From Henriciella sp. (GTDB lineage Bacteria > Pseudomonadota > Alphaproteobacteria > Caulobacterales > Hyphomonadaceae), in contig JABSPZ010000012.1 in assembly GCA_013213785.1 (NCBI GenBank), forward strand, positions 1 through 64,000: a stretch of DNA of 64,000 nucleotides, read 5' to 3'. The position numbers and the translations under genes are program-made. The notes beneath the pieces are model-generated. The model did no database searches. It was given only the letters and a program-made list of their open reading frames with translations, and was not told where the DNA came from. Shown piece after piece: positions 46,535-63,400 of this stretch (positions are counted from its first letter, which is position 1; each line of letters begins with the position of its first letter).

Positions 46535-48613
46535 TTACTTGACGGGCGTCAGCGCAATTGCGGTGCCGCCGCCTGGGGCAAGCTTCAGCGAAAGTGTGTC
46601 ATCTCCGGTGACTGACTTTGTCGAAATGTCTAGCGGGTATGGGTTTGTGCGCCAATCCGCGCCGTCTCCATCCGCATAGACTTTGCCGGTGTAGGCGTCT
46701 CCCTCGAGGAATGAGAGGGGGATTTCAATTTCTCTCGATTCTTCGTCGGAGACCGCACCGATATACCAGGTTTCAGAGTTTCGATCTTTGCGCGCCATAA
46801 CTGCGAAAGCGCCAGGGTATCCATCGAGCATAATCGACTCGTTCCAATCGACGGGCACTTGTTTGATAAATTCAAACGCTTCCGGGTGCGCCTCGTAATT
46901 TCGCGGTAGATCAGCGGCCATTTGAATTGGGCTGTGCAGCAGGACATAGAGCGCGAGTTGTTTTGCGAGTGTCGTCTGAACGCGCGGGTCTTCTGTCGCA
47001 GGTTTTCCAAAGCTCAAATCAAAGATGCCCGGCGTGAAGTCCATGGGGCCGGAGAGCATGCGCGTGAAAGGCAGGATGGTTGTGTGGGTAGGATCATTCG
47101 GCGGCTGTCCCCAGGCATTGTATTCTTGCCCGCGCGCGCCTTCTCGTGAAAACGCATTCGGATAGGTTCTGCGCAGGCCAGTATCTTTGACGGGCTCGTG
47201 GGCGTTGATCGAAATCTTGTGCTTCGCTGCCAGTTGTAGGGCGCGTAAGTGGTGGTTCACGGCATACTGGCCATCATGCCATTCTTTGTAGACTTTGCCG
47301 TCCGCATCACGGCGCGTGATCTCACCGCCATCGGCGACATAGCCGGTTTTAATCGCGGGAATGCCGAGCGACTCATAGAGCGCGTAGGCATCGGCCATTT
47401 GCTCTTCATAATTCGTGATCGCGCCCGAGGTTTCGTGGTGACCGATCAGGTAAACGCCGCGTTCTTTTGCGTAAGTCGCCAAGGCCTCGATATCGAAATC
47501 TGAATAGGCTTTGGTGAAGCTAAAAATCTCACCGTTTGAAAACCAATCGCCGTCCCACCCAAAGTTCCAGCCCTCGACCAGTACGCCGTCAAATCCATGC
47601 TCGGCTGCAAAGTCGATATAGGCTTTTGTGCGCTCCGTCGTGGCGCCGTGCGTCTCGCCTGATCCCCAGGTGCATTCATTTATGTGCATACACCACCAGA
47701 TGCCGATATATTTGCTTGGTTCGGCCCAGGAGACATCGCCCAACACGTTTGGTTCATTGAGGTTCAAGATGAGGTCAGAGTTCGCGAGGCCAGCGGCCGT
47801 ATCGGACACTTGAAGAGTGCGCCAAGGCGTCTTGAAGGCGCCGCTGACTTTCACCTTTGTGCCATCGGACCAGGGCGCGAGTTCCGCCTCCAAGGTTCCT
47901 GCTCGGCGTTGATTTAGCCACATGCCGGCATAGTCGGTGAGGGCTGCTTCGTGGATGGATAAGAAAGGGCCTTCATCTGGCAATTCCAGCGTTATCGGCG
48001 TGTGAGCTCTCGGAGCCGCTTGTAACTCTGTCTCGTGATAGAGTTCCTCATACCGGTTCCAGCCCGCTGCCGGAATCCACCAGGTTTTCGCCGCAGGGTC
48101 GATGCGAAACTCAGTCAGTTCGTCTGTGATTTCGCGATTACCAGTGTCTGGAACTTCATAGCGGAACCCAAGGCCGTCATCGTATATGCGCGCACGGAAC
48201 GTGAGGGCGGGCGAGCCATCTTCGTGTGCTATCTCGACGGCGAGTTCGTTGTGGTGGTCGCGGACGAGCCGGCGTTCACCCCAGGGTTGCTCCCACGTTT
48301 GATCGACCGAATTGGTTGTAACTGAGGTGATGCTCAGATTTGTGCTTAAGTCTTGTCCGGTTTTGAAAACGAGGCCGAGGGCTGAGGGAGAGATTATTTC
48401 GTCACCGCGCCAATCTGCACGCCAAACCAGTTGGCCATTATGCGCGTTGAGGTTAAGGCTCAAATCGCCAGAGGGGGATGAGAGGCTGGTGGTTTCTATG
48501 CGTTGATTGGGTATGCTGTCTGCGGCTGCATGCTGAGGCGCTGAGGCATCGATTATACAAGCGGTGAGGCTCAGAGCTAAGATTGCCGCGCTGACTGTGA
48601 GTGTCTTCCGCAT
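46535..48613 (-). CDS. GH97 alpha-glucosidase lipoprotein (SusB-like)
   Basis: 692 residues from ATG 48613, sixteen codons inside the longest frame, giving MRKTLTVSAAILALSLTAC with lipobox LTAC. N-terminal beta-sandwich, central TIM barrel (GSGETHGATTERTKAYI; EGWNFGWDGDWF) and C-terminal sandwich. NAHEPVKDTGLRRTYPN holds E473 and GQEYNAWGQ holds E497; their 24-residue spacing equals that of Glu508 and Glu532 of Bacteroides SusB, so the enzyme should be the inverting, calcium-dependent type acting on alpha-1,4 and alpha-1,6 glucosides. Divergent from the second GH13 gene across a palindromic TTGCAA site. Confidence 0.94.
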   Translation of the reverse strand: MRKTLTVSAAILALSLTACIIDASAPQHAAADSIPNQRIETTSLSSPSGDLSLNLNAHNGQLVWRADWRGDEIISPSALGLVFKTGQDLSTNLSITSVTTNSVDQTWEQPWGERRLVRDHHNELAVEIAHEDGSPALTFRARIYDDGLGFRYEVPDTGNREITDELTEFRIDPAAKTWWIPAAGWNRYEELYHETELQAAPRAHTPITLELPDEGPFLSIHEAALTDYAGMWLNQRRAGTLEAELAPWSDGTKVKVSGAFKTPWRTLQVSDTAAGLANSDLILNLNEPNVLGDVSWAEPSKYIGIWWCMHINECTWGSGETHGATTERTKAYIDFAAEHGFDGVLVEGWNFGWDGDWFSNGEIFSFTKAYSDFDIEALATYAKERGVYLIGHHETSGAITNYEEQMADAYALYESLGIPAIKTGYVADGGEITRRDADGKVYKEWHDGQYAVNHHLRALQLAAKHKISINAHEPVKDTGLRRTYPNAFSREGARGQEYNAWGQPPNDPTHTTILPFTRMLSGPMDFTPGIFDLSFGKPATEDPRVQTTLAKQLALYVLLHSPIQMAADLPRNYEAHPEAFEFIKQVPVDWNESIMLDGYPGAFAVMARKDRNSETWYIGAVSDEESREIEIPLSFLEGDAYTGKVYADGDGADWRTNPYPLDISTKSVTGDDTLSLKLAPGGGTAIALTPVK

Positions 48614-48647
48614 ATCGTCTTTCCGAGTTTTTGTTGAGCTTAAAGCA

Positions 48648-48669
48648 AGATTGCAAATCATTGCAATCT
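48648..48669. promoter_or_regulatory. Candidate LacI-type operator between GH97 and GH13 genes
   Basis: A perfect inverted repeat with 9-bp arms (48648-48656 with 48661-48669) and a 4-base centre; within it TTGCAA stands at 48651 and 48661, 10 bases apart. It is 35 bases upstream of the GH97 start and 139 upstream of the GH13 start, a position suited to repress both divergent promoters. Assignment to the LacI protein encoded at 52383 is inference. Confidence 0.6.
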
Positions 48670-48808: not shown

Positions 48809-50716
48809 ATGCGGTCGCGACAAACCAGGCTTGGAGTGAGCCTACTTGGGCTTGCATGTGGGATGTTTCTTTCGGCTTGTGCGGGCGCTGTTGGTGAAGA
48901 ATCGACGACTCAGCCTGCCGTGTCCTTCGAGATCAAGTCTTCATCGGTTGAGGATCGCCGGATCGAAGATGAGATTATTTATTTCGTCCTGCCGGATCGT
49001 TTTGAAAACGGTGACCCAACCAACGATCGAGGTGGTATCGAGGGTGGGCGCCTGAAGGATGGTTTCGACCCAACGGATTTTGGCTTTTATCATGGCGGCG
49101 ATCTCAAAGGGCTGACGCGGCGATTGGATTACATCCAAGGTCTCGGGATGACCGCCATTTGGCTGACGCCAATCTTTGAGAACAACCCGGTGCAGGGACC
49201 AGAAGGTAAAGAGTCCTCCGGATATCACGGATATTGGATTACGGATTTTACCAATGTCGACCCGCATATAGGGACGCGCGAAGACTTCAAAACCTTTGTG
49301 GATGCTGCGCACGCCCGCGGCATGAAAGTCTATATGGACATCATAACCAATCATACCGCTGACATTATTGGATACCGAGAATGTCATGATCCAGAGGTGA
49401 CGGGCGGTCCAACCTTCCGGTGTGAGTATCGCTATATCGGCGACTACCCATGGACTCGCCGCGCGAGTGATGGGGCCGCGATCAATGATGGCTTCTTGGG
49501 GGATGACGGAGTTCACCAAACCGAGGAGAACTTTGCGAATCTGACTGAGCCAACTTGGGCGTACACGCCTTTCGTGCCTGAGCAGTTTGAGGGCTTAAAA
49601 GTTCCAAACTGGCTGAACGACACGATCTACTATCACAATCGCGGTGATACGGACTTTGTAGATGAGGACTCTCTGTACGGCGATTTTGCTGGGCTCGATG
49701 ATCTCAATACGGCCCATCCCCGCGTCCTGGAGGGAATGATCGAGATCTACAAAGACTGGATCAGCGCCTACAATGTGGATGGTTTCCGGATCGACACGGC
49801 GAAGCATGTTCGGGACGAGTTCTGGCAAGCCTTCGCGCCAGCGATTTTGGGTCACGCTGCGGGTCTGGGGATCGATCACTTCCACATGTTCGGCGAAGTC
49901 TATGTTGACGGCCAAAAGCCTCAACACCTCGCGCGCTTTACGACGGGTGCGGGGCTGCCAACTGTTTTGGATTTTGCATTTCAATCGAGCGCTCGAGGTT
50001 TGATTGTCGACGAAAAGCCCGGCCTATTTATGGATGAATTGTACCGAGCCGACGTGATCTATGCGAATGGTGCTGAAACGGCGCGCCAGCTGCCAACTTT
50101 CCTCGGTAATCACGATATGGGGCGTTTCGCGGGTTTCTTGCGCGAGAGCCAACCTGATATGACTGATGCGGAGCTGTTTGCGCGCGTACGCTTAGCAAAT
50201 GCGCTCATGTTTTTCACGCGCGGCGTGCCCACCATTTACTATGGAGATGAGCAAGGCTTTGTTTCGGATGGTGGCGATCGGTTGGCGCGCGAAAACATGT
50301 TCCCGAGTCAAACCGATCTTTACAATGATAATGACTTGATCGCGACAGATGCCACCACCGCTGAAAGCAATTTCGACACAGAGCATCCGCTCTATCTGGC
50401 AATTAAATCCTTCGCGGATATCCGAACGCGAGAAACGGCCATCCGTCGTGGTGAACAGATTACACGTCTGGCGCATCGCGAAGACAGCGTCTTTGCTTTT
50501 TCGCGTATCGACTATGATGCGGGGACGGAAATTGTGGTGGCGATTAATGCCGAAGAAAGCGATCAAGATATCAATGTTGCGGTGGATGGGCGTGCATCGA
50601 TCTTCTCTGCTTTGCTCGGGCAATGCCACGTCAATGCCACCGCGCCAGGAAGCTATAAAATGACCATTCCGGCGCTCGATGTTGTGGTTTGTAAGACGGA
50701 ATTTGGGGGCAAATAA
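48809..50716 (+). CDS. GH13 alpha-amylase/cyclodextrinase-like lipoprotein
   Basis: 635 residues starting after AGGAGGATGCG. Leader MRSRQTRLGVSLLG... ends in lipobox LSAC with Ala at +2, predicting outer-membrane retention. Large GH13 barrel with YMDIITNHTADI (region I), DGFRIDTAKHV with the nucleophile (II), MFGEVYVDG with the acid/base Glu (III) and FLGNHDMGRFAG (IV); domain B is long (residues about 180-260) as in alpha-amylases and CGTases, and a C-terminal beta-sandwich ends the chain. Likely the endo-acting enzyme that opens starch-like glucans or cyclodextrins. The last base overlaps the next start (TAATG), so it is coupled to the GH13 alpha-glucosidase. Confidence 0.94.
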   Translation: MRSRQTRLGVSLLGLACGMFLSACAGAVGEESTTQPAVSFEIKSSSVEDRRIEDEIIYFVLPDRFENGDPTNDRGGIEGGRLKDGFDPTDFGFYHGGDLKGLTRRLDYIQGLGMTAIWLTPIFENNPVQGPEGKESSGYHGYWITDFTNVDPHIGTREDFKTFVDAAHARGMKVYMDIITNHTADIIGYRECHDPEVTGGPTFRCEYRYIGDYPWTRRASDGAAINDGFLGDDGVHQTEENFANLTEPTWAYTPFVPEQFEGLKVPNWLNDTIYYHNRGDTDFVDEDSLYGDFAGLDDLNTAHPRVLEGMIEIYKDWISAYNVDGFRIDTAKHVRDEFWQAFAPAILGHAAGLGIDHFHMFGEVYVDGQKPQHLARFTTGAGLPTVLDFAFQSSARGLIVDEKPGLFMDELYRADVIYANGAETARQLPTFLGNHDMGRFAGFLRESQPDMTDAELFARVRLANALMFFTRGVPTIYYGDEQGFVSDGGDRLARENMFPSQTDLYNDNDLIATDATTAESNFDTEHPLYLAIKSFADIRTRETAIRRGEQITRLAHREDSVFAFSRIDYDAGTEIVVAINAEESDQDINVAVDGRASIFSALLGQCHVNATAPGSYKMTIPALDVVVCKTEFGGK

Positions 50717-52368
50717 TGGCGGGAATGTCAGAGTCTCAGGAAGCGATAATGCAGGGCGCAATATCTGATTTGCCCTGGTGGAAGGGCGCCGTCATCTATC
50801 AAATCTATCCGCGCAGCTTTCGGGATACGGACGGGGATGGGATCGGTGATTTGCGCGGAGTTCTGGAGGGGCTGGGCCACATCGCTTCGCTTGGCGTAGA
50901 TGGTATTTGGATTTCGCCTTTCTTTACATCGCCGATGGCAGACTATGGTTATGATGTCGCCGATTTTTGCGGCGTAGATCCAATTTTCGGGACACTTGAA
51001 GACTTTGATGCGGTTGTGGAGAAGGCGCATGCGCTCGGCCTGAAAGTTATTATCGATCAGGTTTATTCACATACGTCTGATCATCATGACTGGTTCATTG
51101 AGAGCCGGTCGAGTCGGCACAATCCGCGTGCTGACTGGTATGTTTGGGCGGATCCGAAATCCGATGGATCGCCGCCAAGCAATTGGCAGTCCGTATTCGG
51201 CGGACCAAGTTGGGAATGGGACGCTCGACGCGGCCAATACTATTTCCACAATTTCTTGAAAGAGCAGCCTGATCTCAACCTCTATAATGAAGAAGTGCAG
51301 GCGGCTTTGATTGCGGCAGGGCGGTTCTGGCTGGATCGCGGGGTTGATGGGTTCCGGTTGGATGCGCTGAACTTTGGCATGCATGATCGCGCGCTGCGAG
51401 ATAATCCACCATCGGGGGTCCAGGCGCACGAGGCGACCCGGCCTTTCAACATGCAGATCCACAAATACAACATGTCTCAGCCGGACATTGTTGGCTTCAT
51501 CGAGTTGTTTCGCGAGATGCTGAACGACTATCCCGGCACATTCACTGTGGCTGAGGTGGGTGGTCCAAACCCGATTGCAGAGATGAAAGCCTTCACGGAG
51601 GGCGAAGAGCGTTTGAATTCAGCTTACAATTTCGACTTCCTTTATGCGCCGGAGCTCGGGGCCGAGCGGGTCATGCGGTCGGCGAATTTGTGGGATCAGT
51701 CGGACGAAGAAGGTTGGCCAAGCTGGGCTTTCTCAAACCATGATGCGCCGCGTGCGGTGACCCGTTGGGCGCCTGGCGAGCAGCGCGATGAGATGGCGCG
51801 GCTTTACATGTTGCTGCTTCTGACCTTGCGCGGAAACCCGATCATTTATCAGGGTGAAGAGCTGGGATTGCCGCAAGCGAATGTTCCGTTCTCGCATCTG
51901 AAAGATCCAGAGGCGATTATGAACTGGCCCAAAACGCTTGGGCGGGACGGCGCACGGACACCAATCCCATGGGAGGTCGCCAAGCCACATGCCGGGTTCT
52001 CTTCTGCTGAGCCGTGGTTGCCGGTCGATCCTGAGCACGCAAAGCTGGCGGTTGATCAACAGCAGGGGAATGACAGTATGCTTCGCTTCACGTCAGAGGC
52101 TTTGGCGGTGCGAAAGCGTTTCGAGGCTTTGCTGCATGGTAAGATGAGTTTCCATGAGGTTGGACGAGACACGGCCTTGGTCGTTCGCCGAGAGGCTTCC
52201 GAGGGGGCTATCATTGCGCTGTTCAATTTTGGTGACGCGCCTTTTGCAATTCCGCCAGGCTTGGTCTCGAGCGGAGATGTGGTGTTGTCTTCAAGGCCTC
52301 TTAAGGAAAATTTGCTACAGGATCAGGCTGTTCCGGCGCGCGCGGGTGTGTGGGTTCGCGTGGATTAA
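50716..52368 (+). CDS. GH13 alpha-glucosidase, cytoplasmic
   Basis: 550 residues, no signal peptide, so it acts on imported sugar. The GH13_23/oligo-1,6-glucosidase-like pattern opens with WWKGAVIYQIYPRSFRDTDGDGIGDL, then DYGYDVADF, IDQVYSHTSDHHDW (I), DGFRLDALNFG (II), TVAEVGGPN (III) and FSNHDAPR (IV). Retaining enzyme releasing glucose from maltose and short maltodextrins, the final step after the MFS transporter. It starts inside the stop of the preceding GH13 gene and is followed 14 bases later by the LacI regulator gene, in one transcript. Confidence 0.94.
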   Translation: MAGMSESQEAIMQGAISDLPWWKGAVIYQIYPRSFRDTDGDGIGDLRGVLEGLGHIASLGVDGIWISPFFTSPMADYGYDVADFCGVDPIFGTLEDFDAVVEKAHALGLKVIIDQVYSHTSDHHDWFIESRSSRHNPRADWYVWADPKSDGSPPSNWQSVFGGPSWEWDARRGQYYFHNFLKEQPDLNLYNEEVQAALIAAGRFWLDRGVDGFRLDALNFGMHDRALRDNPPSGVQAHEATRPFNMQIHKYNMSQPDIVGFIELFREMLNDYPGTFTVAEVGGPNPIAEMKAFTEGEERLNSAYNFDFLYAPELGAERVMRSANLWDQSDEEGWPSWAFSNHDAPRAVTRWAPGEQRDEMARLYMLLLLTLRGNPIIYQGEELGLPQANVPFSHLKDPEAIMNWPKTLGRDGARTPIPWEVAKPHAGFSSAEPWLPVDPEHAKLAVDQQQGNDSMLRFTSEALAVRKRFEALLHGKMSFHEVGRDTALVVRREASEGAIIALFNFGDAPFAIPPGLVSSGDVVLSSRPLKENLLQDQAVPARAGVWVRVD

Positions 52369-52382
52369 GTAGGGAGTGAGCC

Positions 52383-53402
52383 GTGGAGACCAAACCGACA
52401 ACGCGTCTTGAGGATCTTGCCAAGCAGGCAGGGGTTTCAATTTCGACGGCGTCTCGTGCTCTAAACGACAGTCCCGCAGTCAATGTGCGCACCAAGCAAA
52501 AGATTTGGAAGCTCGCGCGCGAGCTGGATTACCCGTTTCGCGCTTACATGCCGGCGGGTCCGATTGGCGCGAATGCGACGATCTCGATTGTGGTGCCGCG
52601 GCCGCAGAGCCGGGAAGGGCGTATGGCCGACCCGTTCTTTTTTGAGCTGCTCGCAGGTATCGGTGACGCAGCACGTGAGCGCGGCTGCGATATCTTGCTC
52701 AGCTACATCGCGCCGTCCTCTTATGATGAGCTAGCGACGGCCATGTCGACCAGCCGCTCAGATGGCGTGATCTTTCTTGGGCAGTCGACCCTGCATGAGG
52801 CCTTTAATCGTTTGGCGGAAGTTGAGGACCGATTTGTGGTCTGGGGTGCATCATTGCCGGAGCAATCCTACTGCTCGGTCGGTAGCGACAATATAGCGGG
52901 CGGGCGGCGTGCAACCTCTCATCTTGCGCGACTTGGTCGGAAGAAGATTGTTTTCTTGGGAGACCCTGACGCGCCAGAGATTGGTCAACGGATGCGGGGC
53001 TACCGTGAAGGGTTAGAGCTCGCAGGTTTGCCATATGAAGATCGACTTATCGTACCGGCACACTTCCAAGTCGCTTCTGCGCGTGCGGTGGTCGAGACGC
53101 TAATCGCTGAAAAGGCGGGCTTCGATGCGATATTTGCTGCAAGTGACTTGATTGCGTTGGGGGCAATGCAGGCGATTCGGCGCGCTGGATTGTCGGTTCC
53201 TGGCGATGTTGCAATTGTCGGCTACGATAATGTTCCATTCGGTGTCTACGCCGAGGTTCCACTGAGTACGATCGATCAAGACACAAGCAAAGCGGGTCGA
53301 GTTTTGGTCTCGAAACTTCTCGACTCATCTGGTCAGCGCGGTCCTGATGATGATCGAATTCCTGCCGAATTGATCGTTCGTGCATCTTGCGGCGCCGACT
53401 AA
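52383..53402 (+). CDS. LacI family regulator of the alpha-glucan locus
   Basis: 339 residues from GTG 52383, preceded by GGGAG. The N-terminal helix-turn-helix is TRLEDLAKQAGVSISTASRALND at about residues 7-29 (recognition helix VSISTASRAL), then the hinge and a periplasmic-binding-protein-like effector domain with DGVIFLGQ, GRRATSHLARLGRKKIVFLG, FAASDLIALGAMQAI and GYDNVPFGVYAEVPLSTIDQD. Dimeric repressor, most likely released by maltose or a maltodextrin, like MalI of the Caulobacter mal locus. It ends the GH13-GH13 transcript and precedes the receptor gene. The TTGCAA boxes at 44080, 48651 and 53443 are the best operator candidates. Effector and sites are inferred. Confidence 0.94.
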   Translation: METKPTTRLEDLAKQAGVSISTASRALNDSPAVNVRTKQKIWKLARELDYPFRAYMPAGPIGANATISIVVPRPQSREGRMADPFFFELLAGIGDAARERGCDILLSYIAPSSYDELATAMSTSRSDGVIFLGQSTLHEAFNRLAEVEDRFVVWGASLPEQSYCSVGSDNIAGGRRATSHLARLGRKKIVFLGDPDAPEIGQRMRGYREGLELAGLPYEDRLIVPAHFQVASARAVVETLIAEKAGFDAIFAASDLIALGAMQAIRRAGLSVPGDVAIVGYDNVPFGVYAEVPLSTIDQDTSKAGRVLVSKLLDSSGQRGPDDDRIPAELIVRASCGAD

Positions 53403-53425
53403 CACTCGTTCAACGAGTGCTTTTT
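53403..53425 (+). terminator. Intrinsic terminator after the LacI gene
   Basis: CACTCG (53403-53408) pairs with CGAGTG (53414-53419) around TTCAA, and five T residues follow (53421-53425). It separates the hydrolase-regulator transcript from the receptor gene. Confidence 0.75.
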
Positions 53426-53442
53426 CACAAATTTTCATTTCT

Positions 53443-53468
53443 TTGCAAAATTTTGCATTGAATTGCAA
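53443..53468. promoter_or_regulatory. Candidate LacI-type operator upstream of the maltodextrin receptor
   Basis: Three units at 10-base steps: TTGCAA at 53443, TTGCAT at 53453 and TTGCAA at 53463. The first two make a perfect 14-base palindrome (53444-53457). A further single TTGCAA lies at 53627. The site is about 230 bases before the receptor start in an AT-rich leader of 297 bases that holds no gene. Confidence 0.6.
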
Positions 53469-53699
53469 AGGCCGTAATTTCAGCATTTTCCACGCTTTTG
53501 ATTGTTCGATAGGCATAGAAACTATCGAAATGGCTACGTTGTCAGCGCTAATTGATGTATTTTGGTCACGATCTTCCTGCCAATACGCATGGCTTGCATG
53601 CGAAAGGGGTTGGCGTTTTCATAAATTTGCAATAAAGAGAACGAGTCAGAAAGTGGTGGAGTGCCACATTTCCTGCGTGCAAGGTTTAGGGAGGAACAA

Positions 53700-56474
53700 T
53701 TGAAGACAACTTTCGTGAATAAGAAGAGCTGGCTGCTCGGTACAGCGGCCTTGGCGCTTGTCGCCAGTGCGCCTGTTTACGCGCAAGAGACATCAGAAGA
53801 TGCCGAAGACGAGCAAGCGACGCTTGATGTCGTCACCGTCACGGGTATCCGCGGGTCGATCCAAAACTCATTGAATGCCAAGAAGAACGCGACTTCGATT
53901 GTTGAAGCGATCTCGGCAGAGGATATCGGTAAGCTTCCGGACCTCTCAATTGCGGACTCGCTTGCTCGCCTGCCAGGTGTAACGGCTCAGCGTGTACGCG
54001 GCCGATCTCAGCAAATCTCAATTCGTGGCCTCGGCCCGGATTTCTCACTCGCGCTCTGGAACGGCCGTGAAGTTGTTTCTGCAGGGAACAATCGCGGCGT
54101 CGAGTTTGACCAGTTCCCGTCTGAACTGGTTGCGCAAGGTGTTGTGTATAAGACCCCTGACGCGACACTGGCTGCGACGGGTATCGCTGGGGCGATCGAT
54201 CTTCGCACTGTTCGCCCGCTTGATTATACAGAGCGCAAGCTGAACTTCTCTGGCAAATATGTCTTCAACGACAATGACCAGCCGAACCCAGACTTCGATG
54301 AGGACGGTTACCGCCTGTTCGGATCATACATCGATCAAAACGAGAATGGCACCATTGGTTGGTCTCTCGCTGGGACGATCCAATCGAACCCAACTCAGTT
54401 TACTTCTCGTGAGCTGAAGACGAATAGCGGTCAAACCTCCATCGATCCTGCAACTGGACTTGTTTATCCATCGGATAACCCACGTACCGGTGTGGTCTCT
54501 CGCGAGTTTGAGCGGACTTCAGTCGCGGGTGCTTTGCAGTTCGAGCCGAACGATCGTTGGCAGACTACAATCGACGCGTTTTACACCGACACCGAAGATG
54601 CCGGTATTTTCCGCGGCGTAGAGACGCCAATCGCGTCTTGGTCTTCAGCACAGTTCCAGGGAACAGCTGGGACGTCTGGATTTGCCGATGCTGCCGTCTA
54701 CAACAACGTTACGACGTTCCTGCGGACCGATACGGAAGGTAATACGGCTGAGATTTTCGCGATTGGTTTGAACAGCTCGTATCAAGTTTCTGATCGTTTG
54801 AAAGTGACCGGCGACTATGCGCGCTCTACACTCGATCGTAACGACATCGACTATGAGTCTTATGCGGGCACCGGTTTTGCGGGCGCTGGCCCAACCGACA
54901 CGCTCGGGTTCGGCTTCGACGATGATGGCGAGTATGGCATTGCTGCTGGTCTCGATTACACAGACCCTGGTGTTGTTGTTCTCACCGACCCAGGCGGTTG
55001 GGGCCAAGTTGGCTTCATCAAAGAGCCTCAGATCGAAGACGAGCTGAATCAACTTCGCCTCGAAGCAGAGTATGATATTGGCGGTCAGTTTATCTCTGGA
55101 GTCAAAGCCGGTGTTCTCTTCACAGACCGCGAAAAGACTTTCGACTCGAATGAGAACTTCATCCGCGCTGGTGCAAACTTCGTGAATGGCGAACTGGCTA
55201 TTCCGAGCAACCGAATTGTTGGGTCTACAAACTCAGGAAACATCGGTCTCGACATCATTGCGTATGATCCATCCAGCTTCCTGACCGACGGGACTTACAC
55301 GCTCGAGAAAGCAACGTTTGATACCGAGTGGGTTGTAGAAGAAGAGATCACAACTTTCTACGCGATGGCGGAGATCGACAGCACGTTTAACGGCGTGCCG
55401 ATGTTCGGTAATGTTGGGTTCCAGTACCAGGACGTTGATCAATCTTCGACTGCGAACTTGCAAGGTGGCGGCGAGCGGCAACAAACGCTTGGTGCATCGA
55501 ATAATTACTTCCTGCCGAGTGCGAACGTTTCGTTCGAAGTGTCGCCTGACACGTTCTTGCGCTTCGCTGCAGCCAAGACGGTGACAAGACCACGGCTTGA
55601 TAACCTCGCGGCCAACCAAACGGTATCGATCAACAACCAAGTCTGTGCTGACACAGATGGCGACTTCGTACCTGATTCATTGGTCGGATTTACGATCCCA
55701 ACCAACCCTTGCTTCAACATCAGTGGTGGTAATCCACAGCTTGAGCCGTATCAGTCGACGTCACTCGATGTGTCATTCGAAAAGTACTTCGGACCGACAA
55801 CGGCGCTTAGTGTTGCGGTCTTCCACAAGGAGCTTTCTGACTGGGTTGAAACGGCAACTCGCACGACCGACATCACAGAGCAGTTGACCTCTATCGGTGT
55901 TCCAGCGCTCGACGCGTTTGTTGCAGCGAACCCTGAAGTCGCGACTGCGGTGACAAGCTTCCCGGAAAACATCTCGGACGGCACGATCACAGGTATCGAA
56001 GCGACGCTGCGTATGAGCTTGGATGACTATTTGCCAGAGCAGTTTGCTGGGTTTGGTTTCAACGCAAGCTATACCTATGCAGACAGCAGCCTATCCGGTG
56101 CAATCAGCGGAAACGACATTCGCATCCCAGGTTACTCTGACAATGTATGGTCCGGTGACCTCTACTATGAGAACCACGGTTGGCGATCGCGGATAAGTGC
56201 GCGCCATCGTTCAGGCTTCCTTTCAGAAGTCCCGCAGTTTGATGGCTCTCTGACAGGTGCGGAAGCCCAAGACGAAACCATCGTCGATCTACAGATCGGT
56301 TACGAATGGGAAGACGGAGCACTCGAAGGCCTCGGTGTGAACTTCGAAGTGTTCAACCTCACAAATGAGCCATTCGTCACTGAGGCTGAAACGGCTGACC
56401 CAAGCGTGGTCTTCCCAAGCCGTCACGAACTCTATGGCACCACTTACAACATCACGGTGTCTAAGAAATTCTAA
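53700..56474 (+). CDS. TonB-dependent receptor for maltodextrin (MalA-like)
   Basis: 924 residues. TTG 53700 is chosen: AGGGAGG lies at 53688-53694 and the chain begins with a full signal peptide (KTTFVNKKSWLLGTAALALV... cut near VYA/QE). The longer frame from 53661 adds unfit residues. After an acidic linker come a TonB box (LDVVTVTGIRG), a plug of the Xanthomonas/Caulobacter receptor type (SIVEAISAEDIGKLPD; SLARLPGVTAQR; ISIRGLGPDFSLALWNGREV) and a beta-barrel ending NITVSKKF with terminal Phe. By position in the alpha-glucan locus it should import maltodextrins across the outer membrane, as MalA does in Caulobacter; the substrate is inferred. Strong terminator follows. Confidence 0.94.
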   Translation: MKTTFVNKKSWLLGTAALALVASAPVYAQETSEDAEDEQATLDVVTVTGIRGSIQNSLNAKKNATSIVEAISAEDIGKLPDLSIADSLARLPGVTAQRVRGRSQQISIRGLGPDFSLALWNGREVVSAGNNRGVEFDQFPSELVAQGVVYKTPDATLAATGIAGAIDLRTVRPLDYTERKLNFSGKYVFNDNDQPNPDFDEDGYRLFGSYIDQNENGTIGWSLAGTIQSNPTQFTSRELKTNSGQTSIDPATGLVYPSDNPRTGVVSREFERTSVAGALQFEPNDRWQTTIDAFYTDTEDAGIFRGVETPIASWSSAQFQGTAGTSGFADAAVYNNVTTFLRTDTEGNTAEIFAIGLNSSYQVSDRLKVTGDYARSTLDRNDIDYESYAGTGFAGAGPTDTLGFGFDDDGEYGIAAGLDYTDPGVVVLTDPGGWGQVGFIKEPQIEDELNQLRLEAEYDIGGQFISGVKAGVLFTDREKTFDSNENFIRAGANFVNGELAIPSNRIVGSTNSGNIGLDIIAYDPSSFLTDGTYTLEKATFDTEWVVEEEITTFYAMAEIDSTFNGVPMFGNVGFQYQDVDQSSTANLQGGGERQQTLGASNNYFLPSANVSFEVSPDTFLRFAAAKTVTRPRLDNLAANQTVSINNQVCADTDGDFVPDSLVGFTIPTNPCFNISGGNPQLEPYQSTSLDVSFEKYFGPTTALSVAVFHKELSDWVETATRTTDITEQLTSIGVPALDAFVAANPEVATAVTSFPENISDGTITGIEATLRMSLDDYLPEQFAGFGFNASYTYADSSLSGAISGNDIRIPGYSDNVWSGDLYYENHGWRSRISARHRSGFLSEVPQFDGSLTGAEAQDETIVDLQIGYEWEDGALEGLGVNFEVFNLTNEPFVTEAETADPSVVFPSRHELYGTTYNITVSKKF

Positions 56475-56506
56475 CTCGGAGTGAGAGTTAGATTCCTCCC
56501 GGAAGG

Positions 56507-56535
56507 GGCCTGTTTTCGGACAGGCCTCTTCTTTC
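56507..56535 (+). terminator. Intrinsic terminator after the maltodextrin receptor gene
   Basis: A 7-bp GC-rich stem (56507-56513 with 56520-56526), 6-base loop TTTCGG, then the T-rich tract TCTTCTTTC. It separates the receptor from the halogenase genes. Confidence 0.75.
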
Positions 56536-56587
56536 GTTTTGGTTGTATAGACTGGGCGAACACGTGAGAGCGGGCTAGAGGTAGCGC

Positions 56588-58096
56588 ATGCAAAGCCAAC
56601 ATATAGAACGCATTGTTATCGTCGGTGGAGGCACCGCGGGATGGATCGCGGCCGCGTCCATGGCGCGGCTCCTCGGACCTTCAGTGAATATCACTTTGAT
56701 CGAATCTGAAGCGATTGGAACGGTCGGCGTAGGCGAAGCGACCATTCCGCAGATCCGACGCCTGAATGGTGTGCTCGGCCTCGATGAGAATGAGTTCGTA
56801 AAAGAAACGAGCGGGACTTTTAAGCTCGGAATCGAGTTCAACAATTGGGGGCATGTGGGCGAAAGCTATCTGCACACGTTTGGCGATGCCGGTATCAATC
56901 TCGCGAGCCTCCATTTCCATCATTATTGGCTCCGCAGCCAATCTGAAGACCCAGCGACGAGCCTCTGGGATTATTCGCTTCATCACAAAGCGGCGTATGC
57001 AAACAAGTTTGGTCGCTTAGACCGGGTCGGCAATACCTCAATGACCGGGCTCGCTTATGCGTTTCACTTCGACGCTGGGCTCTATGCGCGCTACCTTCGT
57101 AAGCATGCCGAATCCAATGGCGCGACACGGATTGAAGGCAAAGTTGTCGATGTCGACTTAGACGCCGAGACTGGCCATATCAAAAGCGTGAGCCTGGAAG
57201 ACGGCCAGGTTGTAACAGGTGATTTATTCATAGATTGCTCGGGCTTTCGCGGTTTGCTGATCGGTCAGGCGCTTGGGGTGGACTATCAAGATTGGTCCAA
57301 ATGGTTGCCTTGCGACAGCGCTGTGGCAGTTGGATGCGAGAGCACACAGCCTCTACTGCCATATACAAAGGCTACGGCTCATGATGCGGGATGGCAATGG
57401 CGTATTCCGCTACAGCACCGTACCGGCAACGGCCATGTCTTCTGTGAGCAGTTTATAAGCGAGGAACGGGCGACTGAAACGTTACTCGCTAACTTAGATG
57501 GCGCGCCTATGGGGGATCCCAAACGTCTTCGATTCACAACCGGGCGCCGTGAGAAGTTTTGGCACAAGAACTGTGTTTCACTTGGCCTCGCGAGTGGTTT
57601 CCTCGAGCCTTTAGAGTCGACCTCGATTCACTTGATACAATCGAATGTTTCGAAACTGATTGAACTGTTCCCGGACAAGACGTTCGATGCTGCGAATGAG
57701 CGTGAATACAACCGCCAGGTCAGTCACGAGTATGAGCTGATCCGCGACTTTCTGATCCTGCATTATCATCGAACAGACCGTGAGGATTCAGAGTTCTGGC
57801 GTTACTGCAAGCACATGTCCGTGCCTGAGAGTTTGACCGAAAAGATGAAGCTCTTTGCGAGCAACGGATTGCTATACAAAGATGCGGAAGATCTGTTTCG
57901 GGAATCCAGTTGGGTGCAAGTCATGGTCGGGCAGGGGCTCGTTCCAAAGAGTTTCCACGCCATGGCAAACCGGGTTTCATCTGATCAACTATCGAACTTT
58001 CTTGGCGATGTGCGGAAGCTGATTGATCGGGCGACAAACGACCTGCCGCAGCATCAAGACTTCATCGATGCTCACTGCAAGGCTGATTTGCAATAG
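56588..58096 (+). CDS. Flavin-dependent tryptophan-type halogenase
   Basis: 502 residues. FAD-binding GGGTAGWIAA at the N-terminus, the halogenase signature WQWRIP at residues 269-274, catalytic K79 in GTFKLGIEF (same number as in PrnA) and E343 in EPLESTS, which orients the bound hypohalous acid. Reduced FAD and oxygen convert halide to HOX, which is led to an aromatic substrate. Similar enzymes encoded beside TonB receptors in Brevundimonas (BrvH) and Xanthomonas halogenate indole in vitro, but their native substrates are unknown. No flavin reductase gene is adjacent. Follows the maltodextrin receptor by about 110 bases after a terminator; its last 25 bases overlap the convergent second halogenase gene. 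Confidence 0.93.
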   Translation: MQSQHIERIVIVGGGTAGWIAAASMARLLGPSVNITLIESEAIGTVGVGEATIPQIRRLNGVLGLDENEFVKETSGTFKLGIEFNNWGHVGESYLHTFGDAGINLASLHFHHYWLRSQSEDPATSLWDYSLHHKAAYANKFGRLDRVGNTSMTGLAYAFHFDAGLYARYLRKHAESNGATRIEGKVVDVDLDAETGHIKSVSLEDGQVVTGDLFIDCSGFRGLLIGQALGVDYQDWSKWLPCDSAVAVGCESTQPLLPYTKATAHDAGWQWRIPLQHRTGNGHVFCEQFISEERATETLLANLDGAPMGDPKRLRFTTGRREKFWHKNCVSLGLASGFLEPLESTSIHLIQSNVSKLIELFPDKTFDAANEREYNRQVSHEYELIRDFLILHYHRTDREDSEFWRYCKHMSVPESLTEKMKLFASNGLLYKDAEDLFRESSWVQVMVGQGLVPKSFHAMANRVSSDQLSNFLGDVRKLIDRATNDLPQHQDFIDAHCKADLQ

Positions 58097-59586
58097 CGAT
58101 CTATGAAAGCTTCGTGCGTCGGCATGGCGTCTACGGCTTGTGTCATCGCTTCTCGGATCGCGCGCATTCGCTCTTGAACTGGAACACCATCTCGATGGTG
58201 CGTCATCGCGGGCGCACGCGCGGGAAAGATGTCTTGGCCCAGATAAACTGCGATCCAACTTGGGTTGTGAAACAGCTCACGTTCATCTGAGACGACCATC
58301 CCATGCGATCTGAAATGATCGATCTTGTATTGCAGGCGGTCTGGGATCGGCATGTTTGCGCAATAGCGCCAGAACTCTGAATCATCTCGTTCGGTCGCGG
58401 TATAGTGAAGGATCAAGAAATCGCGGATGCGCTCATACTCAGCGGTGGTGAGCGCATTATACTCTTCCGCGAGCAGCGGCGATACATCCTTGCTTGGAAA
58501 TAGAGCGAGCAGTCGCATGATCCCATACTGAATTAGGTGCAGGCTTGTGGACTCGAGTGGTTCCATAAACCCTGCTGACAAACCAATCGCGACACAATTC
58601 TTATTCCAGAACTTGTTTCGCCGCCCGGTGACAAAGCGAAGGTGTTTAGGGTCTGAGGTTGGTACACCATCGAGCGATGAGAGAAGAGTCTCTTCTGCTT
58701 GATCTGCCTCGAGATACTCGCTGCAATAGACATAGCCATTGCCGGTGCGGTGTTGAAGCGGAATGCGCCATTGCCATCCAGCGCTCTTCGCCGTGGATTT
58801 TGTGTAGGGCAGGATTGAATAGGTCTTTTCACACGGTGCTGCGACCGCTCGGTTACAAGGCAGCCAGTGCGACCAATCCTCATAGCCCGTCTCCAGGGTT
58901 TTCTCGATCAGCAGACCGAAGAAGCCAGAGCAATCTATAAACAGATCGGCTTCAAATTCTCGTCCATCTTCCATGGTGACAGATCGGATGAAACCGCTCT
59001 CGGGTGCCTGCTGCGCGGACGTTACCCGTCCTTCAATGCGCGAGACGCCGCGCGCCTCTGCATACTTGCGCAAATAGGCTGCATAGAGGGTGGCATCGAA
59101 ATGATAAGCATAGTCGAAGCGCGACTGAACATTTCGTCGATCAGCGAGCGGATGTGAGAATTTACAGGCTTTTGAGGCGGCCCAAGCCATCGAGTAATCA
59201 TCGATTGGAACCGGATCGCCATTCAGATGTTCATGCATCCAGTGCTGATAAAACGGCACATGGTCGAATTCTGCGCCGTAATGGCCGAACGGGTGAAAAT
59301 AGGAATGGCCGACACGGGACCAATCGATGAACTCGATTCCTAGTTTGAATGACCCATGGGTTTCGCGAACAAAAGTCGCCTCATCGATGCCGAGGCGCTG
59401 ATTGAAATAGCGAATAGGTGGAATCGTCGCCTCGCCCACGCCGACCGTGCCAATTGCTTCGGACTCGATCAGCGTGATGTCGCAGCTTTTTCCAAGATCA
59501 TTTGCTAGCGCTGCAGCCGTCATCCAGCCCGCGGAGCCTCCGCCAACGATGACAATTTTCTCTATCGGACTGTTCTCAATGGCCAT
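58072..59586 (-). CDS. Second flavin-dependent tryptophan-type halogenase
   Basis: 504 residues, clearly a paralogue of the convergent neighbour: IVGGGSAGWMTAAALA at the N-terminus, K81 in GSFKLGIEF, WQWRIPLQHRTGNGYVY near residue 270 and EPLESTSLHLIQ near 345 are all kept, so both copies look catalytically competent. Differences lie in the substrate side (for example WSRVGHSYFHPFGHYG against WGHVGESYLHTFGDAG). The two genes overlap tail-to-tail by 25 bases, an inverted duplication. The start is divergent from the DUF6445 gene across a gap with an 11-bp inverted repeat. Substrate unknown. Confidence 0.93.
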   Translation of the reverse strand: MAIENSPIEKIVIVGGGSAGWMTAAALANDLGKSCDITLIESEAIGTVGVGEATIPPIRYFNQRLGIDEATFVRETHGSFKLGIEFIDWSRVGHSYFHPFGHYGAEFDHVPFYQHWMHEHLNGDPVPIDDYSMAWAASKACKFSHPLADRRNVQSRFDYAYHFDATLYAAYLRKYAEARGVSRIEGRVTSAQQAPESGFIRSVTMEDGREFEADLFIDCSGFFGLLIEKTLETGYEDWSHWLPCNRAVAAPCEKTYSILPYTKSTAKSAGWQWRIPLQHRTGNGYVYCSEYLEADQAEETLLSSLDGVPTSDPKHLRFVTGRRNKFWNKNCVAIGLSAGFMEPLESTSLHLIQYGIMRLLALFPSKDVSPLLAEEYNALTTAEYERIRDFLILHYTATERDDSEFWRYCANMPIPDRLQYKIDHFRSHGMVVSDERELFHNPSWIAVYLGQDIFPARAPAMTHHRDGVPVQERMRAIREAMTQAVDAMPTHEAFIDRYCKSALQ

Positions 59587-59633
59587 TCAGTTCTCATCGC
59601 GATTTTCAAGATTTCGCACTTCGCCACTATTGC

Positions 59634-59681
59634 AAACTGTAGCGCTTTTTTAAAGTGCGGTAAGTTGCTACGCTACAGTTT
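59634..59681. promoter_or_regulatory. Inverted repeat in the halogenase/DUF6445 divergent gap
   Basis: AAACTGTAGCG at 59634-59644 and its exact complement at 59671-59681, 26 bases apart. TTGCAA at 59630 touches the left arm. The AGCGCT hexamer occurs at both flanks (from 59641 and about 59685). The site lies 48 bases before the halogenase start and 30 before the DUF6445 start, so one regulator could govern both. The binding protein is unknown. Confidence 0.5.
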
Positions 59682-59710
59682 AAGAGCGCTGTTTTTATTA
59701 GGGTTTCATC

Positions 59711-60406
59711 TTGACTACGTTTGAGCAAAATCCGCTTGAGCCGACCGCAATCCCGATTGGGGTCGAGCAAACGCAAATCGTCCAAGTTTCCGATTTTTTC
59801 AAAACACCCGAATTGGTTGTTGAGGCGGCTTCAAGCCATCGGTATGCGTACATTAATCCACACTATCCAGGGATCCGAGCAAGCGTTGAAGCAGGCCTCC
59901 TTGCCGGGCTTTGCGAGGCGGTTTCTGATCTCGTCGCAACGCATTCTGGGGCAGAGAAACGGGATTGGATTGGGCGGGCATGGTATTCGATTGTCACGCA
60001 TCCGAAAGAACGCTTAACGCCAATTCAGCGCCTGCCGCATTTCGATGGCTTCGATGAATCCCAGCTCGCAGTGATGATCTATCTCAACCAGACCAAACAT
60101 GGCGGTACAGGTTTCTATCGACATCTCTCAACGGGGTTCGAACGAGTTACAGAGGCAAGGTACCCGAGCTACAAAACCGCGTTAGAAACCGGTGTACAAA
60201 AATCCGGTTTACCGCCCGCGCAATACATCGAGGACGGGGCTCCGCATTTTGAGAAAATCTTTGAGAGCGACGCCAGCTTTAACAGTCTCATCCTTTATCC
60301 GGGCACGATCTTACATAGCGGAGCGATCAACAATCAGGTGGAATTGCCAGCCGACTCCAAAACCGGGCGATTAACGATCAACGGTTTTTTTCGACCCGCG
60401 CAATAA
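59711..60406 (+). CDS. DUF6445 family protein with 2OG-oxygenase-like motif
   Basis: 231 residues from TTG 59711, preceded by AGGG at 59699-59703. No signal peptide. The second half carries LPHFDGFDESQLAVMIYLN with H110-x-D112, TILHSGAINN with H202, and GRLTINGFFRP with R220, the order and spacing of the iron-binding HxD...H triad and 2-oxoglutarate arginine in prolyl-hydroxylase-like oxygenases (the arginine is somewhat further away than usual). Strand pattern around GGTGFYRH fits a jelly-roll. DUF6445 genes accompany halogenase/TonB-receptor sets in Caulobacterales-type genomes (recollection). An iron- and 2OG-dependent hydroxylation is inferred, not shown. Confidence 0.78.
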   Translation: MTTFEQNPLEPTAIPIGVEQTQIVQVSDFFKTPELVVEAASSHRYAYINPHYPGIRASVEAGLLAGLCEAVSDLVATHSGAEKRDWIGRAWYSIVTHPKERLTPIQRLPHFDGFDESQLAVMIYLNQTKHGGTGFYRHLSTGFERVTEARYPSYKTALETGVQKSGLPPAQYIEDGAPHFEKIFESDASFNSLILYPGTILHSGAINNQVELPADSKTGRLTINGFFRPAQ

Positions 60407-60491
60407 ACTTCTCGAGCCGGAGCAAAGTCTGCCCTTTGCAACTCATTCGAATGTGATAGCGTGCGCCAAAATCAGGTTGGCGGAGAACCAC

Positions 60492-63400
60492 ATGACAGCG
60501 ATACGCGGTTTGGTTGGAATTTTATTTGCGATGGCTTTGTCATTGCCAGTGTTAGCACAAAACGACAAAGACAAAGATGACGGTCCGATGTCGAGCGCGA
60601 CGTTTGAAGCCTTTAGTCTTCGAAACATTGGGCCGGCCTTCATGTCCGGCCGCATCGCCGACATTCATATTGTCCCGGAACATCCCGCGACTTGGTACGT
60701 CGCTGTCGGATCCGGCGGTGTTTGGAAGACCGAAAACGCTGGTACGACTTGGACGTCTCTTTTTGAGGGGCAGGGGTCCTATTCAATTGGTGCGCTCGGT
60801 GCTGACCCATCGGATCCAAACCGTATTTGGGTGGGAACTGGCGAAAACCATGGTGGCCGACACAATGGTTTTGGCGATGGTATCTATAAGTCAGATGATG
60901 GCGGCGCGACGTGGGAGAAAAAAGGCCTCGAGGCGTCAGAACACATTTCGAAAATCATCGTTCACCCAGAAGATCCAAATACCCTTTGGGTGGCATCGCA
61001 GGGACCGCTTTGGTCTCCAGGCGGTGAGCGCGGCGTTTTCAAGACAACCGATGGCGGAGAAACTTGGACCAACACCCTTTCCTCTGGTGAGTATACCGGT
61101 GCAACCGACCTTCTGATCGATCCACGCAATCCAGATCGGCTTTACGCCGCGATGTGGCAGCATCACAGAACGGTCGCGGCCTATGTGGGCGGCGGACCAG
61201 AAAGCGGTCTTTGGAAATCTGAAGATGGCGGTGAGACGTGGAGTGAGCTCAAAAGCGGCCTCCCAAATGGCAATATGGGCAAGATCGGTATGGCGATTTC
61301 GCCGATCAATCCGGACGTTGTATATGCGGCGATCGAACTCGACCTGCGAGAAGGCGGTGTTTGGAGATCAGCCGATCGCGGCGCCAGCTGGACGAAAATG
61401 TCGGACACTGTAAGTGGCGGAACTGGACCCCATTATTATCAGGAGCTCTATGCCAGCCCACACTATTTCGATCGCATCTATTTGGTCTCAAACACGAGCC
61501 AAATCTCTAATGATGGCGGGGCGACGTTCAGCGATCTCAACAATGAATATAAGCACGTAGACGATCACGCGATCGCGTTCCGACCTGATGATCCAGACTA
61601 CATTATGTTTGGTTCCGACGGCGGACTTTATGAGAGTTACGACCACACCAAGACTTGGCGTTTCATCGACAATTTGCCGGTAACGCAGTTCTACAAGGTC
61701 GCGGTTGATGATGCTGAGCCATTCTACAACGTGTATGGCGGGACGCAGGACAACAATTCGCAAGGCGGTCCCTCTCGAACAGACAATGTCCAAGGCATTC
61801 GCAATTCGGATTGGTTCGTTACACTTTGGGGTGACGGACATCAGTCGGCAACTGAGCCTGGTAACCCCGACATCATGTACGCGCAGTGGCAGCAGGGGAA
61901 CCTAACCCGCGTCGACCGCACGACGGGTGAGTTCGTCTATATCAAGCCGCAACCTCTCCCGGGCGATGATATTGAGCGTTGGAATTGGGATGCACCGATT
62001 TGGGTGAGCCAACACGAGCCGACCCGCCTCTACTTTGCGTCTCAACGAGTCTGGCGTTCGGATGACCGAGGCGACAGTTGGACACCTATTTCTGGTGATC
62101 TGACACGCGACGAAGATCGCATGAAACTACCTGTTCAAGGACGCCAGTGGAGCTGGGAAGCGGGCTGGGACATCTATGCTATGTCACAGTACAACACGAT
62201 CACATCGCTGGGTGAGTCTCCACTCAATGAAAACCTGATTTATGCGGGTACCGATGATGGTTTGATCCAAGTCACAGAAGATGGCGGAAACACTTGGACG
62301 CGGTTGGAAGTCGGCCGACTTCCAGGAGTGCCAGACACCGCATTCGTCAATGATATTCGCGCCGACCTGTTCGATGAGAACACGGTCTATGTGGCATTGG
62401 ATAATCACAAATATGGCGACTACAAACCATACCTTCTGAAAAGTACCAATCGAGGGCGCACCTGGCGCGATATCACGAGCAATCTCGACGAGCGCAATTT
62501 GGTATGGCGCGTGGTCCAAGATCACGAGAACCCGAATTTGCTCTTTACGGCGACGGAATTTGGCCTGTTCTTCACGCTCGATGGCGGCGGCAAGTGGGTT
62601 GAGCTGACCGGTAACGCTCCGACGATCGCCTTTAGGGACGTTACCATCCAGCGCCGCGAAAACGATCTCGTCGCTGCCAGCTTCGGACGGGGCTTCTTCA
62701 TTGTCGATGACATCTCTCCGCTTCGTACGCTGAGCGAAGACGGTCTCGAACAGGAGGCGCTTCTGTTCCCGGGGCGAACGGCTCATTGGTATATCGAGCA
62801 GCCATCACTCGCCTTCTCGGAAGGTGGTTCGCAGGGACATGGCTATTACCGCGCTCCTAACCCACCTTTCGGGGCGAACTTCACATACTACCTCGCCGAG
62901 GACATTCAGTCGCTTCAAGAAGCCCGCGTTGAGGCAGAAGAGCCGTTGATTGAGAAAGGTGACGATACTCCATTTCCTGGCTTCGATGCGATCACCGCAG
63001 AATTACAGGAGACCGAGCCCGCAATTTGGCTCACCGTGCGCGATGCAAATGGTGCCGTCGTTCGACGCTTAAAGGGCCCAGCGAAGAAAGGCTTCCACCG
63101 CGTGAATTGGAACCTTCGATATCCTTACACCGGATCCGTCGCGATCGGCGACAATATGGAAGAGGAGCCATCCGGCTATCTCGTTGCACCTGGGGAGTAC
63201 ACAGTGTCCTTGTCCAAGCGTGTGCGCGGGCAAACGACCGAACTTGTCGGGCAAAAGACCTTTACCGTTAAACGCCTGAGAGATGGGGCACTACCAGCGC
63301 AAGCGAATGCGTCTGAGTTCTGGGCTGAGGTGTCAGAATTCGACCGTGCCGTCACTGCTGTTTCAATGACCGTCGGGCAGTTGGACAACAAAATTCAACT

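Follow-up and report, generated by a model that had tools for sequence, protein, structure and literature searches.

Why would genes for two flavin-dependent halogenases and a putative 2-oxoglutarate (2OG) oxygenase lie directly behind a locus for the use of maltodextrin? This question is raised by positions 56588-60406 of a 64,000-nucleotide stretch at the beginning of contig C8 (JABSPZ010000012.1, positions 1 to 64,000; hereafter the window) in the 3.36 Mb genome of Henriciella sp. (GCA_013213785.1; Caulobacterales, Hyphomonadaceae), where a maltodextrin locus spanning ~40.9-56.5 kb is followed by the halogenase genes FDH-A and FDH-B and by a gene of the family DUF6445. An earlier sequence-only reading had described the three genes as an island linked to the TonB receptor of the locus. 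We tentatively propose that they form an oxidative tailoring module that is an accessory of carbohydrate-uptake loci (i.e., loci with a TonB receptor, glycosidases, and a LacI regulator), one that acts on a target depending on the locus. The computed part of this proposal consists of a conserved association with receptors, two old halogenase lineages bound to their gene slots, intact motifs, and the fold and residue set of DUF6445.

The association with receptors was surveyed across the order in 60 genomes, from which we listed 130 halogenases scoring above ~180 bits (matches at or below 116 bits were left out) and 150 of 166 strong matches to the receptor profile TIGR01782, with up to 12 candidates scored per genome; loci ending at contig ends were retained in the counts. 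Ninety-four of the 130 listed halogenases lay within 10 kb of a listed receptor, compared with ~3.3 expected under uniform placement in genomes of 3.3 Mb, and in the reverse direction 58 of the 150 listed receptors had a halogenase within 10 kb, many such receptors doing without. The numbers of halogenases and receptors in a genome were correlated (Spearman 0.61), with a mean of 3.8 TIGR01782 receptors in the 33 genomes containing halogenases vs. 1.5 in the 27 without. The 130 halogenases formed 86 clusters, 34 of which held two to four genes. When these 86 loci were read (the picking of open reading frames, ORFs, labelled a halogenase in 83), a TonB receptor was found by a profile of our own in 71, a GH13, GH3, GH16, or GH97 gene in 52, both in 50, and LacI in 43, and the partner genes encoded Cupin_8 (17 loci), SapC (15), DUF6445 (11), and a TPR-2OG protein (6). 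The link to TonB receptors that the sequence-only reading had drawn was thus borne out, and the co-occurrence with TonB receptors and DUF6445 on which it had staked its proposal was not refuted, the association recurring over the order. What did not hold was its picture of an isolated island devoted to a single imported aromatic: halogenases adjoin receptors in GH13/GH97 as well as GH3/GH16 loci, and their partners differ (DUF6445, SapC, Cupin_8, TPR-2OG). Such variety of sugar loci and partner enzymes is evidence against an aromatic that comes in with one particular sugar, and it indicates that the enzymes work for the uptake system and not for any single sugar.

Many GH3/GH16-type loci (L094, L101, L107, L109, L118, L119, L128, L147, L148, L151) contain a receptor, SapC (PF07277), Cupin_8 (PF13621), and a halogenase in this or a near order, SapC and Cupin_8 replacing DUF6445 as a parallel partner set; no match to Cupin_8 was found in the Henriciella genome. 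The same genome holds, ~124 kb further along contig C8, a GH3 gene, a TIGR01782 receptor, LacI, and four halogenases, of which three are intact and one is eroded, which together would make a beta-glucan locus as read from its ORFs. A number of single halogenases, all from a class with lower scores, are located away from receptors, and two of those checked adjoin pheT; in genomes of one genus, the single halogenases of L083 and L087 and the DUF6445 gene of L043 are found beside the gene for the beta chain of phenylalanyl-tRNA synthetase. Halogenases of the BrvH and Xanthomonas type are known near TonB receptors, a link that we did not find confirmed in the literature on these enzymes. The word TonB is absent from the portions of PMC5945002, PMC7336383, and PMC8269204 that were available, and among the papers listed by a literature search, judged by titles and the openings of abstracts, none dealt with receptor-linked halogenase loci.

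FDH-A and FDH-B, which are 51% identical, match the profile Trp_halogenase over almost its full length (641 and 640 bits, respectively; cut-off 21). As the sequence-only reading had claimed, the FAD motif, the catalytic lysine, WxWxIP, and the glutamate of EPLEST are intact in both, FDH-A carrying GGGTAGW, K79, WQWRIP, and EPLESTS, and FDH-B carrying GGGSAGW with the lysine, WQWRIP, and EPLESTS at positions equivalent to those of FDH-A; the GGG, lysine, and glutamate positions are kept in 159 of 164 aligned halogenases, FDH-A and FDH-B included. Its placement of the two enzymes in a BrvH-like class also agreed with our searches. The three best solved relatives of both are 9luq, Xcc4156 (6y1w), and BrvH (6frl), and the scores to BrvH and Xcc4156 (529 and 459 bits for FDH-A; 464 and 483 bits for FDH-B) are well above those to tryptophan halogenases such as PrnA, PyrH, and RebH (at most 304 bits for FDH-A and 318 for FDH-B). 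The region in which a BrvH-type enzyme would have a short lid loop over its substrate site aligns without a long insert to 9luq in both FDH-A and FDH-B, and to Xcc4156 in FDH-A. Weak, below-cut-off matches of FDH-A and FDH-B were also obtained to QhpG (E 2.5e-7 and 7.7e-9) and LodB (E ~2e-4), flavoproteins that reportedly act on protein-bound residues. Enzymes of this type act on aromatic rings that are rich in electrons. BrvH converts indole to 3-bromoindole in vitro, does not convert tryptophan, and has a substrate site that is open to solvent, and its authors doubt that indole is the natural substrate (PMC5945002). A second study describes the native substrates of BrvH and three Xanthomonas enzymes as unknown and reports that such related halogenases brominate screening substrates (PMC7336383), and a third states that a fourth tryptophan-binding motif is missing in the BrvH group (PMC8269204).

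Phylogeny of the two copies placed FDH-A and FDH-B in separate clades that track the gene slot. In a phylogeny of 164 halogenases, all but one of the 37 same-strand copies following an alpha-glucan receptor (36) grouped in a single 43-member clade (support 0.86), and 23 of the 32 opposite-strand copies grouped in a different 32-member clade (support 0.99). For the 69 sequences from alpha-glucan loci, the slot label changed 3 times on the tree vs. a mean of 23 in 500 shuffles; sugar context, for all 164 halogenases, changed 27 times vs. 74. Because the clades are bound to slots and slot changes are few relative to the shuffles, the pair is ancient and did not arise by recent duplication. The arrangement is also beyond chance, as the gene order recurs in other genera and the exact 25-base overlap of the two genes recurs in 11 of the 28 convergent pairs listed, two of which are the same contig, giving 10 distinct loci with the window included.

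The second place in multi-halogenase arrays is taken by a degenerate halogenase: five of the 164 aligned sequences have lost the catalytic lysine and GGG (L108, L113, L115, L122, L149), and shorter degenerate forms of 330, 433, and 266 amino acids (aa) occupy the same place in L008 (12187-13179 on contig C8 of the Henriciella genome), L098, and L095, respectively. The degenerate copy is retained as an open frame with faster divergence (L113 and L122 share 40% identity here vs. 65-68% in the three flanking copies) and is possibly a pseudoenzyme subunit; the ratio of nonsynonymous to synonymous substitution (dN/dS) could not be estimated for the degenerate halogenases, given that dS was saturated.

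The product of the third gene had been read as resembling an iron/2OG oxygenase, and both its residues and its predicted fold support this view. DUF6445 contains an HxD...H metal triad and a distal arginine, and H110, D112, H202, and R220 are the same in all 45 rows of an alignment (as in all 42 of a smaller one). The best matches of the predicted model (pLDDT 95.5, pTM 0.91) in the PDB are 2OG oxygenases, including ALKBH2, OGFOD1, PasI, and Tpa1 (probability 1.0, E ~1e-5 to 1e-4, TM ~0.5); a sequence search of the PDB gave no clear relative, the best hit (E 0.75) being an unrelated enzyme. On these grounds we predict that DUF6445 is an Fe(II)/2OG oxygenase with a double-stranded beta-helix fold. 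Within a library of viral structures, the model is closer to predicted cyanophage proteins than to PDB entries (S-SSM7 E3SKU5, E 7e-12, TM 0.66). Our literature search found no paper mentioning DUF6445.

Matches to DUF6445 were present in 35 of 100 genomes of the order. Among the 34 stronger loci, for each of which ~20 kb was read, 17 contained a halogenase, 18 a receptor, 14 an amylase-family gene, and 13 all three, while of the seven weaker loci (from 8 of 13 weaker matches read) none contained a halogenase and three contained a receptor. The 80 loci most like the DUF6445 of the window are the best 80 of 481 confirmed, a selection that biases the maltodextrin share upward, and some are contigs that the order survey already included; 63 of the 80 contained a halogenase, 60 a receptor, 57 both, 60 an amylase-family gene, and 14 neither halogenase nor receptor (69 of the 80 received the DUF6445 label). 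The nearest named relatives belong to Henriciella and other Hyphomonadaceae. DUF6445 is not bound to halogenases, since in seven genomes its neighbors are instead genes for a MocA-type oxidoreductase and an M20 peptidase, mostly joined by one for a beta-lactamase-family protein. Two further copies (L044, L045) adjoin genes for GH67 and GH115, pointing to loci for the use of glucuronoxylan.

How might such a module work? The halogenases, in which no signal peptide is visible, would act in the cytoplasm with reduced flavin (FADH2) supplied in trans by a housekeeping flavin reductase; the sequence-only reading had seen no reductase gene nearby, and the single PF01613 match of the genome indeed lies on another contig (C50). 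They would add bromine or chlorine to an aromatic ring in a target that varies from one uptake locus to the next, and DUF6445 would hydroxylate or otherwise oxidize the same or a neighboring target. We favor slightly, as that target, the side chain of a protein or peptide over a free small molecule, because BrvH has an open site and no activity on free tryptophan, because the lineages differ by locus type and slot, and because glucans have no aromatic ring; which protein or peptide it would be is a guess. One candidate is the TonB receptor of the locus itself, or another exported uptake protein, which the receptor-linked halogenases and their partners (DUF6445; elsewhere Cupin_8 or TPR-2OG) would halogenate and hydroxylate before export, tuning uptake at the outer membrane. 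We regard this as a long shot; we know of no halogenated bacterial transporter, and the receptor, if the idea were true, would be the first one.

Several results weigh against a tailoring module of uptake loci, and against the receptor as its target. Ninety of the 150 listed receptors stand more than 15 kb from any listed halogenase, and the sister of a linked receptor (L162) sits in a genome without any halogenase match (G027), so the module is dispensable; likewise, 17 of the 34 stronger DUF6445 loci lack a halogenase within ~10 kb on either side. Coevolution of receptor and halogenase is no stronger than with other genes of the locus: with carefully chosen orthologs, the receptor-halogenase correlation was 0.80 and its partial correlation -0.05 (43 loci) vs. 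0.88 and 0.58 for halogenase and GH13, and in 61 loci the receptor-halogenase partial correlation was 0.33, with control pairs at 0.47 and 0.49. Nor was any receptor aromatic near-universal in 78 linked receptors and rare in 32 unlinked ones. The linked set here includes receptors outside TIGR01782 as well as L090, L133, and L141, which were added by hand after ORF picking had missed their halogenases; L206 13452-16436 was removed from the unlinked set, and identical receptor sequences were removed. Between these sets, linked and unlinked receptors differed at Y163 (81 vs. 16%) and Y374 (87 vs. 25%) of the window receptor and at one tryptophan column (55 vs. 9%), differences that follow the clades of the receptor tree, and total contents of Trp, Tyr, Phe, and His were alike. 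Regulation gives a further point of this kind. Five operator-like sites TTGCAAANNTTTGCAA (at most 2 mismatches), vs. 0.43 expected, were found upstream of the receptor and at the genes for maltodextrin use, a generous statistic given that the motif was chosen from these same promoters; there were none elsewhere in the window, and the scan found no such site at FDH-B/DUF6445 (59587-59710).

An initial mirror-tree comparison had ranked receptor and halogenase as the best pair (0.84, 45 loci), which proved not special after careful ortholog choice and was not used. The TonB receptor was modelled with a mean pLDDT of 83.6.

Similar operator-like sites precede the receptor in five related loci (L062, L063, L222-L224). 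Terminator-like hairpins such as the one between receptor and FDH-A are not over-represented (7 in 53300-60500 vs. 7.9 in shuffles). FDH-A may be expressed by leakage past that hairpin, and FDH-B and DUF6445 may be expressed from their own divergent promoters. An inverted repeat, AAACTGTAGCG ... CGCTACAGTTT, is situated between FDH-B and DUF6445 at 59627-59684 and includes a TGTAGC(A/G)..TTTTTTA stretch common to L221-L223; it is possibly a promoter or regulator site.

The features of the locus are collected in Table 1. Coordinates, strands, and the tail-to-tail overlap of the halogenases as first described are all exact, and the description of a complete maltodextrin locus is fair in view of its receptor, LacI, two GH13 genes, GH97, GH15, and GH13-like and MFS-like ORFs. 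Its membership among carbohydrate-utilization loci with a TonB receptor rests on the receptor, glycosidases, and regulator present, the transporter being assigned by ORF reading only. The next gene after DUF6445 encodes a sortilin/BNR-repeat protein. No secondary-metabolite genes were evident beside the halogenases among the ORFs read around the block, whose neighbors are the maltodextrin locus, the TonB receptor, and the sortilin/BNR-type protein; the survey covered ORFs above 90-100 aa, and a smaller gene for a precursor peptide, as in a RiPP tailoring cluster, may be present.

Table 1. Features at the halogenase locus and the adjoining maltodextrin locus (positions in the window).
Feature	Position	Strand	Basis or remark
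MFS-like transporter (inner-membrane type)	40939-42504		ORF reading only, without family search
GH13-like gene	42517-43935		ORF reading only, without family search
GH15 glucoamylase-type protein	44106-46532	+	Family search
GH97 alpha-glucosidase-type protein	46535-48661	-	Own profile; family named via Pfam on homologue in locus L068
GH13 (alpha-amylase family) glycosidase	48809-50716	+	Profile match
GH13 (alpha-amylase family) glycosidase	50716-52368	+	Profile match
LacI-family regulator	52383-53402	+	Profile match
Operator-like site TTGCAAAATTTTGCAT before receptor	53443-53458	+	Four others at 43851, 44080, 48651, 53617
TonB receptor, TIGR01782, start putative	53661-56474	+	533 bits vs. cut-off 310
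Terminator-like hairpin, 14 pairs, T-rich tail	56501-56532	+	Between receptor and FDH-A; z -2.4
FDH-A, flavin-dependent halogenase (PF04820), 502 aa	56588-58096	+	Pfam Trp_halogenase 641 bits; motifs; slot clade
FDH-A/FDH-B overlap, 25 bases, both stop codons inside	58072-58096	tail to tail	Coordinates exact
FDH-B, flavin-dependent halogenase (PF04820), 504 aa	58072-59586	-	Pfam Trp_halogenase 640 bits; motifs; slot clade
Divergent intergenic region FDH-B/DUF6445	59587-59710		Without operator-like site
DUF6445 (PF20043), 231 aa, TTG start, predicted Fe(II)/2OG oxygenase	59711-60406	+	Pfam 209 bits

A small-molecule signal is a serious rival to a protein target. Under this explanation, which we consider rather unlikely, the enzymes would make a small halogenated and oxidized aromatic, such as an indole or phenol signal or a defense compound, while the cell feeds on polysaccharide, and their position in sugar loci would serve regulation. 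The 3-bromoindole that BrvH produces from indole in vitro and the bromination of screening substrates by related halogenases speak in its favor, but the authors of the BrvH study themselves doubt indole as the natural substrate, and a split of the lineages by locus and slot is unexpected if all of them yield one compound; moreover, the ORFs read around the block show no further biosynthetic gene, and the operator-like site of the sugar genes is absent at FDH-B and DUF6445. The first suggestion of the sequence-only reading, that the enzymes tailor an aromatic imported by the receptor (e.g., an aromatic glycoside), draws on the adjacency of module and receptor; we give it a slim chance, as the same enzyme families occur with receptors in both alpha-glucan and GH3/GH16 loci and the glycosidases beside the window receptor are of starch-type families. 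Its other suggestions, a peptide or a self-made signal, may yet prove right.

Two other explanations were considered. Halogenation may have been lost, leaving flavin monooxygenases, redox sensors, or scaffolds of the uptake system, and the several loci that keep a degenerate halogenase in a fixed place would fit such a history; with the checked positions retained in nearly all aligned halogenases, including both enzymes of the window, we find this improbable. Alternatively, sugar loci could have spread between lineages with the enzymes as passengers that have no part in uptake, given that the block is found in Caulobacterales, Sphingomonadales, and some Gammaproteobacteria (taxa as given in the sequence records), but slot-specific clades, a recurrent gene order, and the conserved overlap imply long joint retention and make mere hitch-hiking very doubtful.

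Whatever its role, the gene set exists as described, and within this group it is both ancient and common; BrvH-type halogenases close to TonB receptors were known, and the predicted oxygenase partner and the slot-specific paralogues are newly recognized. What had been a halogenase near a TonB receptor is now a recurrent arrangement in which the slots are fixed and the partner enzymes defined, documented in named species that in some cases have type strains; the block is present, for example, in Hirschia maritima DSM 19733 (L291) and Erythrobacter longus DSM 6997 (L226). DUF6445, so far a family without assigned function, gains a predicted fold and active site and a genetic context. PMC5945002 and PMC7336383 leave the native substrate of BrvH-type enzymes open, a question that the pattern makes accessible to experiment.

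Compared with known systems, FDH-A and FDH-B are most like BrvH, Xcc4156, and 9luq, with which they share an end-to-end sequence match and catalytic motifs; the window differs in having two lineages, a fixed convergent pair, DUF6445, and a maltodextrin locus, and activity here is predicted from sequence. With the variant A tryptophan halogenases PrnA, PyrH, and RebH they have family, motifs, and cofactor logic in common, but they score lower against these than against the BrvH group, and no secondary-metabolite cluster is seen around the block. QhpG and LodB offer a precedent for a protein target only, since FDH-A and FDH-B fall far below the curated cut-offs and are non-members. DUF6445 has HxD...H...R in common with ALKBH2, OGFOD1, Tpa1, and PasI, its best model matches, at a TM of only ~0.5 and with no sequence relative in the PDB. 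Finally, the locus shares its receptor, glycosidases, LacI regulator, and transporter-like gene with TonB-receptor carbohydrate utilization loci, to which it adds halogenases and a predicted oxygenase that are not needed for the uptake of sugar.

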